Assembly (NCBI GenBank): GCA_947446975.1
Contig: CANFHM010000008.1
Location: 1 to 64,000 of the forward strand
Direction: 5' to 3'
From: Microthrixaceae bacterium
GTDB taxonomy: Bacteria > Actinomycetota > Acidimicrobiia > Acidimicrobiales > Acidimicrobilacustridaceae
DNA: 64,000 nucleotides
Shown: positions 475 through 57,246 of the stretch, piece by piece
Position numbering within the stretch: position 1 is the first letter of the stretch
Layout of the letters: each line of letters opens with the position of its first letter
Program-made: the position numbers and the translations under genes
The notes under the pieces: generated by a model
Told to the model about the DNA's origin: nothing
The model's database searches: none
Seen by the model: the letters and a program-made list of their open reading frames with translations, nothing else

Positions 475-702
475 ACCCCGATCTGTCGTTGGACCTGAGA
501 GTTTCATCCACGCCCGGTGGGGGCATCCCCGGGAACCCGTCCCGATGCGGCCACCGCAGAGCATCGATTTTCCCCGTCGGTGAGATCCGCCACAGGTGGG
601 GGATCTGCTCTCCAGAGTCGCCTACATCTGCGGTACTGGTGCCTGAGAGTTTCCCGGGGGGTTGCTCCTTCGGCGCCGACGCGGGCCGGACTCTCCCGCA
701 GA
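475..702 (-). promoter_or_regulatory. Tandem glycine riboswitch upstream of gcvP
   Basis: Read on the minus strand, this gap holds two glycine-riboswitch aptamers in series. The first has GGGAGAGTCC (about 699-690), the core GCCGAAGGAGCAA (about 675-663), AAACTCTCAGGCA (about 651-639) and the closing ACTCTGGAGAG (618-608). That closing segment overlaps the opening GGAGAG of the second aptamer, which ends with AAACTCTCAGGTCC (about 504-491). Loss of the canonical GCCGAAGGAGCAA core in aptamer 2 (CACCGACGGGGAAAA instead) is the main deviation. It lies between the aldolase stop (732) and the gcvP start (420), so it controls gcvP. The class normally activates glycine catabolism when glycine is bound. 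Confidence 0.92.
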
Positions 703-731
703 TGATGCTTGGCTTCAGTTGTGGGGCGAAC

Positions 732-1538: not shown

Positions 1539-1624
1539 GGTGTCCGCATCCTTCCGATCGGGGCGTGTGCGAGGAGTCTACGAGGCGGTGCTTGTGCTTC
1601 GGGGCGACGCATGATTCACTGCTC

Positions 1625-1762
1625 ATTGCAATCAGAGGCGTCAGGTGAGGGGAAGTCCGGTGCGAATCCGGCGCTGTCCCGCAACCGTGTGTCAGAGGCT
1701 GTGGACGGGGAGACCCGGCCGGGGCTGCTGGCGAGTCGGATCACCGAACCTGTCGCTCAGAC
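1625..1762 (+). promoter_or_regulatory. Cobalamin (adenosylcobalamin-type) riboswitch
   Basis: The segment carries the conserved B12 riboswitch core: GGGGAAGTCCGGTGCGAATC around 1649-1668, then CGGCGCTGTCCCGCAACCGT, and later GGGGAGACCCGGCC around 1707-1720. The outer helix P1 can be drawn from GCGTCAGG (1638-1645) with CCTGTCGC (1749-1756), 7 of 8 pairs. Downstream, GGAACGTG (1780-1787) can pair with CACGTTCC (1820-1827), a possible expression-platform hairpin ahead of the start codon at 1878. The class normally represses downstream genes when B12 is plentiful. No transporter or B12 biosynthesis gene follows in this window. Confidence 0.9.
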
Positions 1763-27559: not shown

Positions 27560-27580
27560 CACCTCATCCTCCGATCATCA

Positions 27581-27616
27581 CGAAGGCCCCGATGCTCATC
27601 GAGCTCGGGGCCTTCG
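27581..27616 (+). terminator. Terminator hairpin after the ferredoxin gene
   Basis: A perfect 12-bp inverted repeat, CGAAGGCCCCGA (27581-27592) and TCGGGGCCTTCG (27605-27616), with a 12-base loop. It starts about 20 bases after the ferredoxin stop, before the convergent protease gene. The following sequence is only weakly T-rich. It could act in both directions. Confidence 0.75.
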
Positions 27617-27709
27617 TCGTTCCCGGGTGATCCTTCGTCCACAGCCGGGTCATGGATGGAGCTTCATCGTTGCCACGGAACCCGGTGTGAGGTCGGTCGG
27701 CGGGCCGTG

Positions 27710-51312: not shown

Positions 51313-52098
51313 TCAGTTCATCCGGGAGCGCATGCGGTCACGGGCGCTCAACAGCGTGGCTGCGGTCTCGGGATCAGCGAGCGACGCCAGGCATTCGAAG
51401 ATCTCGGCGGCAGCATCGAACTGACCGCTGTTGGCGAGCACCATGGCGACATCCGCCCTGTGCGACAGCGTGGCCTGCGGGAGATGCGCGCGCAGTCGCG
51501 ACACCCACAGCTGGGACCGGAGATCGCCGTCCGACCGGAAGATAGTCAGGAGGTTGTTGAGCATCCGCTCGATGATCAACAGGGGTCCGACCGGGGCGAG
51601 CATCGATGGATCGAACCGGACGCTGCTCCCGTGGAGCTGATGGAAGAGGGCGACGCAATCAGCTGTCGAGAGCAGCGCACCGGCGTCGAACGGGTCGAGG
51701 TAGGTGTCGGGCTGATCGGTGAGCGCGACGAGGAAGTGACCCGGCATGCCGACGCCCTCCACGGCGATCGCGGATCGCCGCGCCACGGCCATCGTCAGGA
51801 CGCTCAGCGTGATCGGGATCCCCCGCCGACGGCTGAGCACGCGGTCGAGATAGGAGTTGTCGGGGTCGTAGTACGTGCAGGTGTCGCCGCCGAAACCGAG
51901 CTGGTCGAACAGCACCGATCGGAGGGACTCGACACGACCCGGCTCGACGGAGCTGGCCATCTCGTCGATCGAAGCGAGCGCCGCGGCGACATCGAGATCG
52001 TGGTGCGCATGGGCGGCGATGAGCATCGCCGCCTCCTCGAGGATGAGGTCCTGTGAGGGTCCGGTGACACAGGCGATGAATCGATCGGTCGCACTCAC
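51313..52098 (-). CDS. SirB1/transglutaminase-like family protein
   Basis: A 261-residue protein of the SirB1 type: RRRGIPITLSVLTMAVARR and GVGMPGHFLVAL, then YLDPFDAG, with TPR-like helices at the C-terminus (DVAMVLANSGQFDAAAEIF). These carry a degenerate transglutaminase fold; the role is unknown. GTG at 52098 has TACCCT seven bases upstream, divergent from the GDPD gene. The open frame continues to 52509 but would overlap that gene. Confidence 0.85.
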   Translation of the reverse strand: MSATDRFIACVTGPSQDLILEEAAMLIAAHAHHDLDVAAALASIDEMASSVEPGRVESLRSVLFDQLGFGGDTCTYYDPDNSYLDRVLSRRRGIPITLSVLTMAVARRSAIAVEGVGMPGHFLVALTDQPDTYLDPFDAGALLSTADCVALFHQLHGSSVRFDPSMLAPVGPLLIIERMLNNLLTIFRSDGDLRSQLWVSRLRAHLPQATLSHRADVAMVLANSGQFDAAAEIFECLASLADPETAATLLSARDRMRSRMN

Positions 52099-52164
52099 CG
52101 GCCGAAGGGTACCGAAACCTCGGGACGGTTCAACCCTGTGAGGGGAGGCGTCTACGCTCGCGCC

Positions 52165-52926
52165 GTGGGCACGGAGACGCATCCCTTCCTCGACAACGGC
52201 GGACCCATCGCCTTCGCCCATCGCGGCGGGGCGAGCGACGAACCCGAGAACACGATGCCGGCCTTCGCCCGTGCGGTCGAACTCGGGTACCGGTACGTCG
52301 AGACCGATGCGCATCTCACCGCCGATGGGAAGGTCCTGGCGTTCCATGACGACCGACTCGACCGTGTCACCGATGGCACCGGCGTCATCGAGGACCTGCC
52401 ATGGGAGCAGGTGCGCACCGCCCGTGTCGACGGTCGCGAACCCATCCCGCTGCTCGCCGAACTGCTCACCACATGGCCCGACCTCCGTGTGAACATCGAT
52501 CCCAAGCACGACGCCGTCGTCGAACCGCTCGCCGCACTGCTCCGAGAGCTCGACGCAGTTGATCGTGTCTGTGTCGGCTCGTTCTCCGACCGGCGCATCG
52601 ATCGGATGTCGGAACTGCTCGGCCCGGAGCTCTGCACGTCACTGGGCCCGAAGGGTGTGGCGAAGCTGAGGGCCTCGAGTTTCGGTCTGGGACGACGCCA
52701 CCCCGGTGGGCGTTGCGTGCAGGTCCCCGTCACGACCGCCGGTGTCACCCTCGTGGATCGCCGATTCATCGAACGTGCGCATGCCTGTTCGCTCGATGTG
52801 CATGTCTGGACCATCGACGACCCCGACGAGATGCATCGGCTCCTCGAACTCGGCGTCGACGGGATCATGACCGATCGTCCTGCGGTGCTCCGCGACGTGA
52901 TGATCGAACGCGGGTGCTGGTCGTGA
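52165..52926 (+). CDS. Glycerophosphodiester phosphodiesterase
   Basis: A 253-residue GDPD. It has IAFAHRGGASDEPENTMPAF, the metal Glu/Asp in YVETDAHLTADG, FHDDRLDRVTDG, and near the end VHVWTIDDPDEM and GIMTDRP. It is more canonical than the GDPD at 17110. GTG at 52165 follows TACGCT by six bases (leaderless pattern). The enzyme recycles phospholipid head groups. Confidence 0.93.
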   Translation: MGTETHPFLDNGGPIAFAHRGGASDEPENTMPAFARAVELGYRYVETDAHLTADGKVLAFHDDRLDRVTDGTGVIEDLPWEQVRTARVDGREPIPLLAELLTTWPDLRVNIDPKHDAVVEPLAALLRELDAVDRVCVGSFSDRRIDRMSELLGPELCTSLGPKGVAKLRASSFGLGRRHPGGRCVQVPVTTAGVTLVDRRFIERAHACSLDVHVWTIDDPDEMHRLLELGVDGIMTDRPAVLRDVMIERGCWS

Positions 52927-52983
52927 GATCCCCCTGTCGCCGCCCGCTCCAGCGCCGCGCGCCCGCGGTGTCGCTGCAGTTGT

Positions 52984-53012
52984 TGACAGTGGCCCTGCCA
53001 TTGCCTAGCTTT
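52984..53012 (+). promoter_or_regulatory. Sigma-70-type promoter of the dpp operon
   Basis: TTGACA (52984-52989) and TAGCTT (53007-53012) are separated by exactly 17 bases. The start point would be near 53019, giving a leader of about 170 bases before the dppB ATG. It is the best -35/-10 match noticed in the window. Confidence 0.75.
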
Positions 53013-53072
53013 CGCCCTGCTGTGGCGCCGGTCACACAGTCCTTGGGGGGAGTGACCAGCAAGCGCCTGCAC

Positions 53073-53114
53073 CGGAGTGGTGTCGTCCGTCGGGGGGCGG
53101 TCGACACCACTCCG
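53073..53114 (+). promoter_or_regulatory. Perfect 13-bp inverted repeat in the dpp leader
   Basis: CGGAGTGGTGTCG (53073-53085) and CGACACCACTCCG (53102-53114) form a perfect stem with a 16-base, G-rich loop. It lies between the promoter and the dppB start. It could be a transcription attenuator, an mRNA-stability element, or an operator. No T-run follows. It matches no riboswitch class I recognise. Confidence 0.6.
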
Positions 53115-53188
53115 CGCTTCACCGTTCCGAGCATCACGCCCATGCAACAACCACCCGACCAGACCGAGCTCCATCCAAGGGAACACGC

Positions 53189-54142
53189 ATGAGATTCGTC
53201 CGCAAGAAGCTTGTGCAGCTGGTCGTCGTGGTGCTGTGCGTCACCTTCTTCTCGTTCCTGCTCCTCGAGCTGCTCCCCGGCGACACCGCCACGACCCTGT
53301 GCGCCGGCGCCGGCGGCACCGAGTGCATCGCCCAGAAGACCGCCGAGTTCCATCTCGACGATCCGATGCCGGTGCGCTACGTGCGCTGGCTCGGTGGCGT
53401 GGTCAGCGGTGATTTCGGGAGCTCCGCTCGCAACGCCCAGCCGGTGTCGGAGGCCCTGAAGCAGCGGCTCCCGGTCACCATCGAGCTTCTGCTGTACTCG
53501 CAGTTCCTGGCGCTCATCATCGCCGTGCCCATCGGCCTCATCGCCGCCCAGCGTGCCGGTGGCCTCTTCGATCGCGGCTCCACCGGTGTGCTGTTCCTGT
53601 TCCTCGCCATCCCCAACTTCATGCTGGCGCTGGTGCTGATCCTGATCTTCCCTGTGAAGCTGAAGTTGTTGAACGCAGTTGGCTACACGCCCTTCAGCGA
53701 GAACCCCTTCAAGAGCCTCGGGAGCCTGCTGCTGCCGGCAGTCACGCTGGCGGCGGCCGAGATGGCCACCTACATGCGTCTGCTGCGCACCGATCTCATC
53801 GCCACGATGCAGGAGGACTACATCACGATGGCGAAGGCGAAGGGCATGTCTCCTCGCCACATCCTGCTGCGTCATGCGTTCAAGCCCTCGAGCTTCTCGC
53901 TCATCACCGTCATCGGACTCAACTTCGGACGCCTCATCGGCGGCACGCTGCTCGTCGAGGTCATCTTCAGCATCAACGGACTCGGCAAGTACACCGTCGA
54001 CGGCATCCTCGGCCGCGACTACATCCCCGTGCAGGGGGCGATCGTCGTCATCGCCCTCGGCTACGTCCTCGTCAACTTCGCCGTCGACATGATCTACGCC
54101 GCTCTCGATCCAAGGATCCGTCATGCCCGCTCACTCGCCTGA
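53189..54142 (+). CDS. dppB: Peptide/nickel ABC transporter permease, DppB type
   Basis: A 317-residue inner-membrane permease with six predicted spans, an N-terminal helix (LVVVVLCVTFFSFLLLELLP), and the cytoplasmic EAA-like loop MAKAKGMSPRHILLRHAF that contacts the ATPases. The family imports di- and oligopeptides or nickel. AAGGGAACACGC precedes the ATG. The 3' end overlaps dppC by 20 bases. Confidence 0.92.
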   Translation: MRFVRKKLVQLVVVVLCVTFFSFLLLELLPGDTATTLCAGAGGTECIAQKTAEFHLDDPMPVRYVRWLGGVVSGDFGSSARNAQPVSEALKQRLPVTIELLLYSQFLALIIAVPIGLIAAQRAGGLFDRGSTGVLFLFLAIPNFMLALVLILIFPVKLKLLNAVGYTPFSENPFKSLGSLLLPAVTLAAAEMATYMRLLRTDLIATMQEDYITMAKAKGMSPRHILLRHAFKPSSFSLITVIGLNFGRLIGGTLLVEVIFSINGLGKYTVDGILGRDYIPVQGAIVVIALGYVLVNFAVDMIYAALDPRIRHARSLA

Positions 54143-55103
54143 CACGCCCGGCGTCATGCCCTCGAAATCCTCGATCTTCGCCGGCAGCGGCGATCTCGCC
54201 ACCGAGATCTCCCGCATCGCCGATGGCTCTGCCCACGAGCACGACATCCTCGGTGCCGTGGACTCCGACGAGGACGGTCGCAGCGCCAAGAAGCGCCTCG
54301 GTCCGATCTTCTGGATCGCCGCCGGATGGTTCATCCTGGTGGCCCTCGCCGCCCTGCTCGCCCCCGTGCTCCCGCTCAAGTCGTACACCGCTCCGTCGGC
54401 GTACATCCGCAAGCCTCCGAGCGCCCAGTTCTGGTTCGGCACTGACACCATCGGTCGTGACATCTTCAGTCGTGTCGTCTGGGGTGGTCGGGTCTCGCTC
54501 GCCGTGGCGTTCGCCTCGATCTCCTTCGGCGTGGTGGTCGGCGGGACGATCGGCATCGTCTCGGGATACTTCAGGGGTCGGATCGAGACCCTGCTCATGG
54601 GGTTCTGCGACGTCCTGCTCTCGTTCCCGGCGCTGCTGCTCGCCCTCTCGATCGTCGCCTTCCGAGGTGATCAGCGCGATCTGCTCACCATCTCTCTGGC
54701 CATCGGTGTGGTGTCGATCGCACCGGTCGCCCGTCTCGTCCGGGCCAACACGCTCGTCTACGCCCAGCGCGAGTTCGTCACCGCCGCTCGATCCCTCGGC
54801 GCCCGTCGGGCCCGCATCATCCTGCGAGAGATCCTCCCCAACGTGATCTTCCCGGTGCTGTCGTTCTCGATCATCGCCATCGGTCTCGCCATCGTCGCCG
54901 AGGGCGGCCTCGCCTTCCTCGGCCAGTCCGTGCAGCCGCCCACTCCCACCTGGGGCGGCATGATCTCCGACGGTCGGAACTATCTCGCCACGGCGCCGTG
55001 GATCAGCCTCATGCCATGTCTGATCCTGTTCCTGACGGTTCTCGCGCTGAACCTCGCCGGAGATCGCATCCGTGAGTACTTCGACATCAAGGACAACGAC
55101 TGA
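54123..55103 (+). CDS. dppC: Peptide/nickel ABC transporter permease, DppC type
   Basis: A 326-residue second permease with a ~60-residue cytoplasmic N-terminus, six membrane segments, and the loop AARSLGARRARIILREILPN. DTIGRDIFSRVVWGGRVSL is the usual DppC N-terminal region. Overlap with dppB and the TGATG junction with dppD indicate strict coupling. Confidence 0.92.
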   Translation: MPAHSPDTPGVMPSKSSIFAGSGDLATEISRIADGSAHEHDILGAVDSDEDGRSAKKRLGPIFWIAAGWFILVALAALLAPVLPLKSYTAPSAYIRKPPSAQFWFGTDTIGRDIFSRVVWGGRVSLAVAFASISFGVVVGGTIGIVSGYFRGRIETLLMGFCDVLLSFPALLLALSIVAFRGDQRDLLTISLAIGVVSIAPVARLVRANTLVYAQREFVTAARSLGARRARIILREILPNVIFPVLSFSIIAIGLAIVAEGGLAFLGQSVQPPTPTWGGMISDGRNYLATAPWISLMPCLILFLTVLALNLAGDRIREYFDIKDND

Positions 55104-56212
55104 TGACCGCCACCGAGACCGACACCAACCTGTCCGTCGGCCAACGTGCGACCCTGCTCGAGGTCACTGATCTCTCGACCTCCTTCCGCACCGAACGCGG
55201 CATCGTCCACGCTGTCGATGGCGTCACCTTCACCCTCGACCGCGGTCGGACCCTCGGCGTCGTCGGTGAGTCGGGGTCCGGCAAGACCGTGCTCTCCCGT
55301 TCGGTCATGGGCCTGCTCACCGGCAAGCATGTGATCCGCGAGGGCAGCGTCAAGTACGAGGGCACCGAGATCATCGGCTACTCGGCCAAGCAGATGAGCA
55401 ACGTCTGGGGCGCCGAGATGAGCATGGTGTTCCAGGATCCGATGACCTCGCTCAACCCGGTGATGAAGATCGGGAAGCAGATCACCGAATCGCTGCGCCG
55501 CCATCTCGGTGTCGACAAGGACGAGGCCGACAAGACGGCGATCGCCCTGCTCAAGTCGGTCGGCATCCCGGCCCCCGAGCAACGACTCGGCGAGTACCCC
55601 CACCAGCTCTCCGGTGGTATGCGTCAGCGGGTCACCATCGCGATCGCACTGGCCTGCGGGCCCAAGATCCTCTTCGCCGATGAGCCCACCACTGCACTCG
55701 ATGTCACGGTGCAGGCCCAGATCCTCGATCTGCTCGACGATCAGCAGCGCGAGCGTCATATGGCAATGATCCTCGTCACCCATGACCTCGGCGTGGTGCG
55801 CACCCGCGCTGACGAGATCATCGTGATGTACGGCGGCAAGGTCGTCGAGCAGGCACCCACCAGCACCCTGTTCGCCTCGATGCGGATGCCCTACACCGAG
55901 GCGCTGCTGCGTTCCATCCCCCGCCTCGACATGCCGAGCCACACCCGCCTCGACGCCATCCCCGGACGCCCGCCGGATCTCATCGCACCTCCCGCCGGCT
56001 GCAACTTCGCCGCCCGCTGCCGGTACGTCCAGCCCCGATGCCTCGAGGAGCGTCCGCCCCTCGTGGCCGCCGCCGATCCCGGCCACTTCTACCGCTGCTT
56101 CTTCCCGGTGGGGACCCCCGAGGGCGCAGCTGCGCTCGAGGCCAATCTCGCAGCGGGAACGGCCGTCGCCGATCCCGCCCCCCGACGCACGACCACGACC
56201 GAGGAGTCCTGA
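55103..56212 (+). CDS. dppD: Peptide ABC transporter ATP-binding protein, DppD type
   Basis: A 369-residue ATPase with Walker A GESGSGKT, signature LSGGMRQRV, Walker B ILFADEPTTAL and the H-loop VTHDLGV. The C-terminal oligopeptide-type extension contains FAARCRYVQPRC. It energises import with DppF. The start overlaps the dppC stop (TGATG). Confidence 0.95.
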   Translation: MTATETDTNLSVGQRATLLEVTDLSTSFRTERGIVHAVDGVTFTLDRGRTLGVVGESGSGKTVLSRSVMGLLTGKHVIREGSVKYEGTEIIGYSAKQMSNVWGAEMSMVFQDPMTSLNPVMKIGKQITESLRRHLGVDKDEADKTAIALLKSVGIPAPEQRLGEYPHQLSGGMRQRVTIAIALACGPKILFADEPTTALDVTVQAQILDLLDDQQRERHMAMILVTHDLGVVRTRADEIIVMYGGKVVEQAPTSTLFASMRMPYTEALLRSIPRLDMPSHTRLDAIPGRPPDLIAPPAGCNFAARCRYVQPRCLEERPPLVAAADPGHFYRCFFPVGTPEGAAALEANLAAGTAVADPAPRRTTTTEES

Positions 56213-57246
56213 TGGCCGGCAGCGGCACCGCTCACCTGCGCGACCCGGAGACCACCCTCCTGCGAGCCGAACATCTCGTGGTGGAGTTCCCGGTCGGCAA
56301 CACCGGGCTCAAGGTCCACGCCGTGTCCGACGTCTCCCTCGACATCCTCCCCGGCGAGACCCTCGGTCTCGTCGGTGAATCCGGCTCCGGCAAGTCGACC
56401 ACGGGCCGGGCGCTGATGCAGATGCCGAGCCCCCGTTCCGGCAGCGTCACTCTGGACGGTCGCGAGCTCACCGGGCTGAAGTCGAACGAGCTGCGCGAAC
56501 TCCGTCCGCAGATGCAGATGATCTTCCAGGATCCGATCTCCTCGCTCAACCCCCGTCGTCGGGTCGGCGACATCGTGGGCGAACCCCTTCGGATCTGGAA
56601 GCGCGGCACCGCCGCCGAGCAGGACGCCATGATCGATGCGACGCTCGAAGCCGTCGGTATCGATCCGGCGGCGGCTCGGAATCGCCGCCCGCACGAGTTC
56701 TCCGGTGGTCAGTGCCAGCGGATCTGCGTCGCCCGTGCGCTCATGCTCGATCCCAAGATCATCATCTGCGATGAGCCGGTGTCGGCCCTCGATGTCTCGG
56801 TGCAGGCCCAGATCCTCAACCTCCTGCAGGACATGAAGGAGCGCTACGGACTCACCATGCTCTTCATCGCCCACGATCTCGCCGTGGTCAAGAACGTGAG
56901 TGACAGGGTCGCAGTGATGTATCTCGGGAAGCTCTGCGAGGTGGGAAGTCCCGACGACATCTACGCCCGCCCGGCGCATCCCTACACGCAGGCGCTCATC
57001 GATTCGATCCCGTCGGCCGACGTGGAATCCGACACCCATGGCGGTGTCCGACTCACCGGCGAGATCCCCTCCCCCGTCGCCCCGCCGAGCGGCTGCCGCT
57101 TCCGCACCCGCTGTCCCGCCGCCCAGGAGCTCTGCGCCCAGGTCGAGCCGGTGATGCGCGAGGTGGCTCCGGCCCAGTTCGTCGCCTGCCACTTCCCGTT
57201 GCACGACGAGAGCGGCACAAGCACTGCGGCGGCCAGCCCCGCCTGA
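56212..57246 (+). CDS. dppF: Peptide ABC transporter ATP-binding protein, DppF type
   Basis: A 344-residue second ATPase: Walker A GESGSGKS, signature FSGGQCQRI, Walker B IIICDEPVSALD, and the C-terminal CRFRTRCPAAQELC segment. ATG at 56212 overlaps the dppD stop. The signature has Cys where Arg is usual (GGQRQR). No substrate-binding protein gene (dppA/oppA) is in the operon or window; it must be elsewhere. Confidence 0.95.
   Translation: MAGSGTAHLRDPETTLLRAEHLVVEFPVGNTGLKVHAVSDVSLDILPGETLGLVGESGSGKSTTGRALMQMPSPRSGSVTLDGRELTGLKSNELRELRPQMQMIFQDPISSLNPRRRVGDIVGEPLRIWKRGTAAEQDAMIDATLEAVGIDPAAARNRRPHEFSGGQCQRICVARALMLDPKIIICDEPVSALDVSVQAQILNLLQDMKERYGLTMLFIAHDLAVVKNVSDRVAVMYLGKLCEVGSPDDIYARPAHPYTQALIDSIPSADVESDTHGGVRLTGEIPSPVAPPSGCRFRTRCPAAQELCAQVEPVMREVAPAQFVACHFPLHDESGTSTAAASPA

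Follow-up and report, generated by a model that had tools for sequence, protein, structure and literature searches.

The dpp operon described here lies in the window, the 64,000-nucleotide stretch of DNA that we analysed, which is part of contig C8 of a 2.35 Mb genome that is 88.6% complete. On the basis of Pfam matches, four genes follow each other on the forward strand in the order dppB-dppC-dppD-dppF (53189-57246), 3′ of a gene for a glycerophosphodiester phosphodiesterase (GDPD; 52138-52926, forward strand; PF03009, 2.6e-43). They are a dppB-type permease gene (53189-54142; PF00528 and PF19300), a dppC-type permease gene (54123-55103; PF00528), and the dppD-type (55103-56212) and dppF-type (56212-57246) ATPase genes, each with PF00005 and PF08352 (oligo_HPY). 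Relatives of dppB were found in 35 of the 37 genomes of the family. We read 34 leaders, belonging to 30 dppB loci and to the genomes G009, G030, G031 and G032; G024, which has two fragmentary dppB matches, is the sole dppB-matching genome without a leader read. The dppB tree comprises 26 loci, all of the 30 except L035-L038.

The promoter claimed in the initial annotation is present on the forward strand, with a −35 element TTGACA (52983-52988) and, after a 17-nt spacer, a −10 element TAGCTT (53006-53011). A promoter scan of 52000-54500 listed none, we think because TAGCTT falls under the scan threshold. Using a script, we found TTGACA or TTGACT, a 17-nt spacer and TANNNT at the corresponding place in 22 of the 30 dppB loci. 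Across 424 kb of the genome, made up of L202-L219 together with the window, crude gene calls gave 215 first-of-unit starts. TANNNT stands 31 times between −16 and −10 ahead of them, where its frequency from −60 to −21 predicts about 4, with a peak of 22 at the single offset −12 relative to the start codon. This peak looks like the signature of leaderless mRNAs, and leaderless starts look common in the genome; the earlier statement that most other genes are leaderless stands to that extent, "most" going beyond what the counts demonstrate. Calibrated by the −12 peak, transcription of dpp is predicted to start at about 53018 (53018-53020, forward strand), which gives a leader of about 171 nt, in agreement with the earlier estimate of about 170 bases. 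No copies of the leader were found elsewhere in the genome, except for its own inverted arms and short matches. The likely ribosome binding site of dppB is AAGGGA (53177-53182, forward strand), 6 nt 5′ of the ATG. The leaders of G006 and G020 (L014 and L016) are nearly identical at their ends, where a very short ORF encodes MNIENHR and has a stop codon that overlaps the start of dppB.

Directly downstream of the predicted start lies a palindrome, TGTGGCgccgGTCACA, which is the most widely conserved element of the leader and was absent from the initial annotation. Pattern match and conservation mark it as a predicted CRP-type operator (TGTGGCGCCGGTCACA; 53021-53036, forward strand), and the start calibrated above would place it at about +4 to +19. 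Its half-sites, TGTGG and TCACA, share 9 of 10 letters with TGTGA-N6-TCACA, with exact spacing over 16 bp. The pattern TGTGNCNNNNGNCACA has its single match in the window here (0.03 expected); in the whole genome it occurs at 4 places, three of them away from dppB, against 2 for the reversed control. A strict form of the palindrome (TGTGNC-N4-GNCACA, at most 320 nt from dppB) was present in all 24 leaders that have no binding-protein C-terminus motif in the upstream DNA examined, 19 of which show a GDPD motif upstream (L020 covers 159 nt only), and in one of the 10 leaders directly behind a binding-protein gene (L037 of G028, at −40). The whole arrangement, TTGAC[AT]-17-TANNNT followed after 6-10 nt by TGTGNC-N4-GNCACA, was found by script in 22 of the 30 loci. 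The palindrome of L017 (G034) stands at −276, behind TTGACA-17-CATGCT, and that of G009 at −69, with a poor −35. The earlier suggestion of a repressor site is thus probably right for the leader, at this palindrome and not at the hairpin.

The genome encodes a 219-aa CRP homologue with cNMP_binding and HTH_Crp_2 domains, along with three more proteins that have a cNMP domain. The nearest solved structure to this homologue by sequence is a CRP/FNR-family regulator (7.8e-42), and both proteins contain GASRE-x-VNKA; we take its top structure matches to be Rv3676 and GlxR. The palindrome also occurs upstream of an SBP_bac_5 (peptide-binding-protein) gene, with no mismatches in G000 and one mismatch each in G007 and G010, where it lies 2 nt before TAATGT (G000) or TAAAGT (G007 and G010). 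The contig of the G018 counterpart ends before the site could be read. Of the 25 SBP_bac_5 loci looked at in five genomes, the others carry no strict match in the part scanned ahead of the gene. In G000, the gene with the palindrome is on contig C72 and its start was read as a lipoprotein signal; two SBP_bac_5 genes are neighbours on this contig (L240 and L249), the palindrome being upstream of the first. The protein encoded there may be the binding protein that the dpp operon lacks.

As an RNA, the whole leader folds in an ordinary way (z −1.55 over 176 nt, with equally good folds in 13 of 200 shuffles), so that the surprise lies in its 13-bp stem itself. This stem belongs to a long hairpin, P2 (53073-53114, forward strand), the perfect 13-bp arms of which, CGGAGTGGTGTCG (53073-53085) and CGACACCACTCCG (53102-53114), enclose a 16-nt interior with GGGGGG; both the stem and the G-rich loop were correctly described in the initial annotation. 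None of 3000 dinucleotide-preserving shuffles of the 171-nt leader reached a perfect 13-bp arm, the longest being 11. Stems of at least 8 bp occur in 30 of the 173 called intergenic gaps of 25-800 bases (424 kb), and among the best stems of those gaps the sole other 13-bp arm is at 27580. That second hairpin (27580-27617) is perfect and U-less and lies behind what we read as a ferredoxin-like gene; three of four genomes retain the core of its stem, whereas G010 has another in its place. P2 folds better on the sense strand than on the antisense strand in all four hairpins compared, and in the consensus fold AAGGGA is free of pairing with it. The 5′ part of the leader forms another hairpin, P1 (53018-53071, forward strand; helices 53024-53028/53063-53067 and 53030-53035/53052-53057), which overlaps the operator. 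All P1 pairs are kept in four genomes, with one double change and two wobble changes; the double change was reached by 112 of 500 shuffles and is not significant.

The initial annotation proposed conservation of the stem in relatives as a check. The leader could be read in 20 genus members; P2 precedes dppB in four of them, G000, G007, G018 and G010, and is absent from the other 16. The four carriers form one clade (support 100/99 in the tree of 26 loci). In their alignment, A1, 41 consecutive columns across P2 are invariant, while in dppB of the same four genomes 29 of 154 shared four-fold sites (19%) are invariant and the longest invariant run is 20. The invariance of P2 would come to about 2e-30 if sites were independent, a figure to be read as an order of surprise and not as an exact probability. 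The ferredoxin-side hairpin, taken as a control, varies in its loop and outer stem among the same genomes. A frozen P2 next to a variable dppB and a variable control hairpin suggests that selection acts on the letters of P2 and not on pairing alone; a covariation check detected no compensatory change in P2 within the four-genome clade.

The loop, GTCGGGGGGC (53089-53098, forward strand), does not vary among the four clade members. It is the same again in G034, a genome of genus g11, where dppB is preceded by two tandem hairpins whose stems are different but which both carry GTCGGGGGGC(GG). No such hairpins were found in G035, the other g11 genome, and the hairpin trait needs two changes on the dppB tree. 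When we compared seven hairpins (four distinct), 7 of 18 pairs were changed on both sides and 88.9% of cells were paired, against 39-60% when slid, a comparison that leans toward structure since we trimmed the rows so that the loops line up and chose G022 for its ability to fold. A model, R1, was built from chosen sequences, namely the four clade members, both G034 hairpins and G022; G036, which lacks the full loop, was left out of A3. R1 matched eight of the 37 family genomes at E 0.1 (five dpp genomes, G022, G012 and G023), the matches to its own source genomes being there by construction. The G022 match lies before a lipoprotein-like gene that is cut by the contig end and has no Pfam match, the G012 match is a hairpin 8-20 nt after a tRNA-Val gene, and the G023 match is a hairpin followed by TTTTT when read on the other strand. 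The hairpin after tRNA-Val (CAC) in L159 of G012 (1501-1530) has the tip CGTCCGTCGGGGCGG, close to that of the dpp hairpin. Order-wide, six of 397 genomes matched at E 0.001, four of them already matched and the others G135 and G050, in which a hairpin with the same or a near loop lies between ORFs read as convergent genes. The same cap is found, rarely, on terminator-like hairpins.

In the convergent gaps called in the host genome from crude, codon-score ORFs, 11 of 39 hold a stem of at least 8 bp and none is followed by four T's in a row. We considered whether the loop motif might be a common terminator cap in the family, where GTCGGGGGGCGG occurs at 107 places, against 50 for its reversed control, and CGTCCGTCGGG-N0-3-CG at 130, against 37. 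Folding of 30 contexts of each motif gave four long stems apiece, three dpp leaders and G022 for the former, three dpp leaders and the G012 tRNA hairpin for the latter. Since so few folded contexts are long-stemmed, the motif alone, even though enriched, is no terminator signature, and we rejected this idea.

Directly 3′ of P2 stands CGCTTCACCGTT, which lacks the U-tract of a canonical intrinsic terminator, and no run of four T's follows the hairpin in the other four P2 genomes. P2 does have the strong stem without a U-tract that characterizes I-shaped terminators. At gathering scores, Rfam 15 gave three matches in the window and none in the leader; lax settings gave four matches, all far below the gathering scores, and nothing in the leader, which agrees with the earlier remark that the leader fits no known riboswitch class. 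Two adjacent glycine riboswitch aptamers (482-708, reverse strand) and a cobalamin riboswitch (1603-1736, forward strand) score above the gathering thresholds elsewhere in the window. In favour of the suggested attenuator, P2 has identical letters in four species and its loop recurs with other stems in a genome of another genus; against an attenuator of the classical kind, the leader has no U-tract, no conserved antiterminator and no conserved leader peptide. For a ribosome-mediated attenuator in particular, the uORF frame is not conserved in the genus and no competing pairing appears in the consensus fold, where a search that was not exhaustive gave no conserved alternative fold. A downstream pseudoknot of 53089-53097 with 53151-53159 was rejected when CCACCCGAC proved not to be kept in relatives.

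Our preferred reading, which we hold tentatively and at somewhat below an even chance, is that dppBCDF is under two layers of control, a CRP-type repression at the start and a terminator-like brake by P2 after initiation. In the first layer, a dimer of the CRP/FNR family, most likely the CRP homologue that resembles mycobacterial CRP, would bind TGTGGCgccgGTCACA at about +4 to +19 and block RNA polymerase, so that initiation at dppBCDF would be repressed; repression is what we would expect of a dimer just downstream of a start or over a promoter. As a similar site overlaps the promoter of the peptide-binding-protein gene, transporter and binding protein might respond together. In the second layer, confined to this clade, the nascent leader would fold into P1 and the very stable P2 with its invariant GUCGGGGGGC loop, and P2, acting like a terminator hairpin of the U-less, "I-shaped" kind, would most likely lower readthrough or slow the polymerase, an effect that a factor reading its loop perhaps modulates. 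Conservation, base pairing and gene neighbourhood follow from sequence comparison, whereas we infer that a regulator binds and represses, where transcription begins and what effect, if any, P2 has. The case for the first layer is made by conservation, by architecture and by the presence of a regulator. By its conservation P2 appears to be a real feature, and the terminator look-alikes and a published I-shaped element favour a brake, while the fixed loop favours recognition in trans. Against the second layer stand the missing U-tract after P2 in all five genomes, the absence of a conserved competing fold and with it of a visible switch, and the lack of compensatory changes in P2 within the clade, the one in P1 being matched by shuffles; moreover, a plain terminator has no need of a fixed loop, and P2 is missing in 16 of 20 genus members, from which it would follow that it is not essential to dpp control. 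Against the first layer count the three palindrome places away from dppB, the two places of the reversed control and the three further cNMP-domain proteins.

The fixed loop leads to another explanation, which we regard as somewhat unlikely: P2 could show its GUCGGGGGGC loop to a partner in trans, and this partner, an RNA-binding protein or a small RNA whose own loop is C-rich, would decide the fate of the leader, the stem serving only for display. Indeed, the loop is the sole part kept where the stem has been replaced (G034a and G034b), and in the clade loop and stem are frozen far beyond the neutral expectation, whereas the U-less ferredoxin-side hairpin varies in the same genomes. RNAs with C-rich loops, such as 6C RNA, are said in PMC9569102 to act on several genes in actinobacteria. 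However, a search of the 88.6% complete host genome for 6C RNA (RF01066) gave no match at E 0.001. At the 4 places in G018 and 10 in G007 where we found GCCCCCCGAC, the 10-nt complement of the loop, it sits in the loop of a long stem only on the leader's own antisense; one G007 place forms a 5-pair hairpin using half of the letters. A stretch at the end of dppD (56175-56193) complementary to the loop region at 18 of 19 letters is not conserved (G007, G018, G010 and G034 have at best 5-7 mismatches) and was dismissed as chance. For the small-RNA target of the initial annotation speak the conservation of P2 and the recurrence of its loop in G034; against it speak the negative 6C search in this genome and the lack, in G018 and G007, of a partner with the full loop complement in the loop of a long stem. 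A wider version, in which P2 would be a lineage-specific cis-regulatory RNA absent from Rfam, its GUCGGGGGGC loop read by a small RNA or a protein, arisen or kept twice before dppB (once in tandem) on top of an older CRP operator, seems to us rather doubtful.

A purely structural role is also unlikely. P1 and P2 could act as a shield, guarding the long dpp transcript at its 5′ end or halting a nuclease, with no sensing involved. Their stems are strong and sited between the start and the ribosome binding site, which they leave uncovered, and G036 has another strong hairpin between its binding-protein gene and dppB. The gap between a binding-protein gene and a permease gene is a usual place for differential mRNA stability. 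A shield, however, would leave the invariant loop and the invariant stem letters unexplained, and it is absent from the same 16 genus members. Still more improbable is that the 16-bp palindrome is a 5′-terminal RNA stem-loop and not a DNA operator, even though in most genomes its two halves could join in a stem of six pairs close to the 5′ end of the RNA, and the lowest-energy structures predicted for the G000 and G007 leaders include this stem. In L015 (TGTGCC..GTCACA), L017 (TGTGAC..GCCACA) and G009 (TGTGTC..GTCACA), the RNA pairing is broken at one position while the DNA half-sites are intact, which fits a DNA operator better; moreover, at the binding-protein gene the palindrome is 5′ of a −10-like hexamer and hence would not be transcribed there. 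Finally, a conserved leader peptide coupling translation to dppB, encoded from a GTG at 53053 through the hairpin to a TGA overlapping the dppB start, is very improbable: no stop codon interrupts the frame in any of the four hairpin genomes, with length differences that are multiples of 3, but the peptides diverge outside the hairpin, third positions inside it are as frozen as the others, the palindrome-to-ATG distances of other genus members (−104, −103, −80 and −181) break the frame, and GGGGGG almost abuts the GTG, a poor Shine-Dalgarno spacing.

With two-layer control as the preferred reading, what had been a vague "structured leader" can be split into two elements, each with precise coordinates: a CRP-type operator that is conserved widely and a younger hairpin, P2, in which the loop letters are kept and the stems differ between genera. 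As far as a limited literature search goes, the regulation of peptide uptake in these small-genome actinobacteria, represented only by metagenome-assembled genomes, looks unstudied. Rv3676, the CRP of M. tuberculosis, and GlxR of Corynebacterium use TGTGA-N6-TCACA sites. The dpp operator (TGTGG-N6-TCACA) resembles these in architecture and spacing, and a homologous regulator is encoded in the genome; it differs in its left half, TGTGG, and in where the sites are predicted to lie, one spanning about +4 to +19 at dppBCDF and the other across the binding-protein promoter. The E. coli CRP consensus is given as TGTGAnnnnnnTCACA in PMC4005916, which also links CRP-cAMP of Pseudomonas putida to the use of dipeptides as nitrogen sources. 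That tie between CRP and dipeptides is a likeness to the present case, in another phylum and drawn without comparing mechanism or sites. The G6 loop of P2 resembles a 6C RNA target in that pairing with a C-rich loop is conceivable (PMC9569102), but no 6C RNA was found in this genome. In M. smegmatis, an I-shaped hairpin without a U-trail cut the expression of a downstream reporter, according to PMC5335608, which also cites work in which the mycobacterial polymerase needs a U-tract in vitro. P2 is similar to the I-shaped terminator after tsaD in the M. tuberculosis alr-groEL1 operon, as presented in PMC5335608, both being strong U-less stems in a high-GC actinobacterium. P2, whose terminating activity is putative, differs from that element in lying in a 5′ leader, in the fixed letters of its loop and in being duplicated in one genome.
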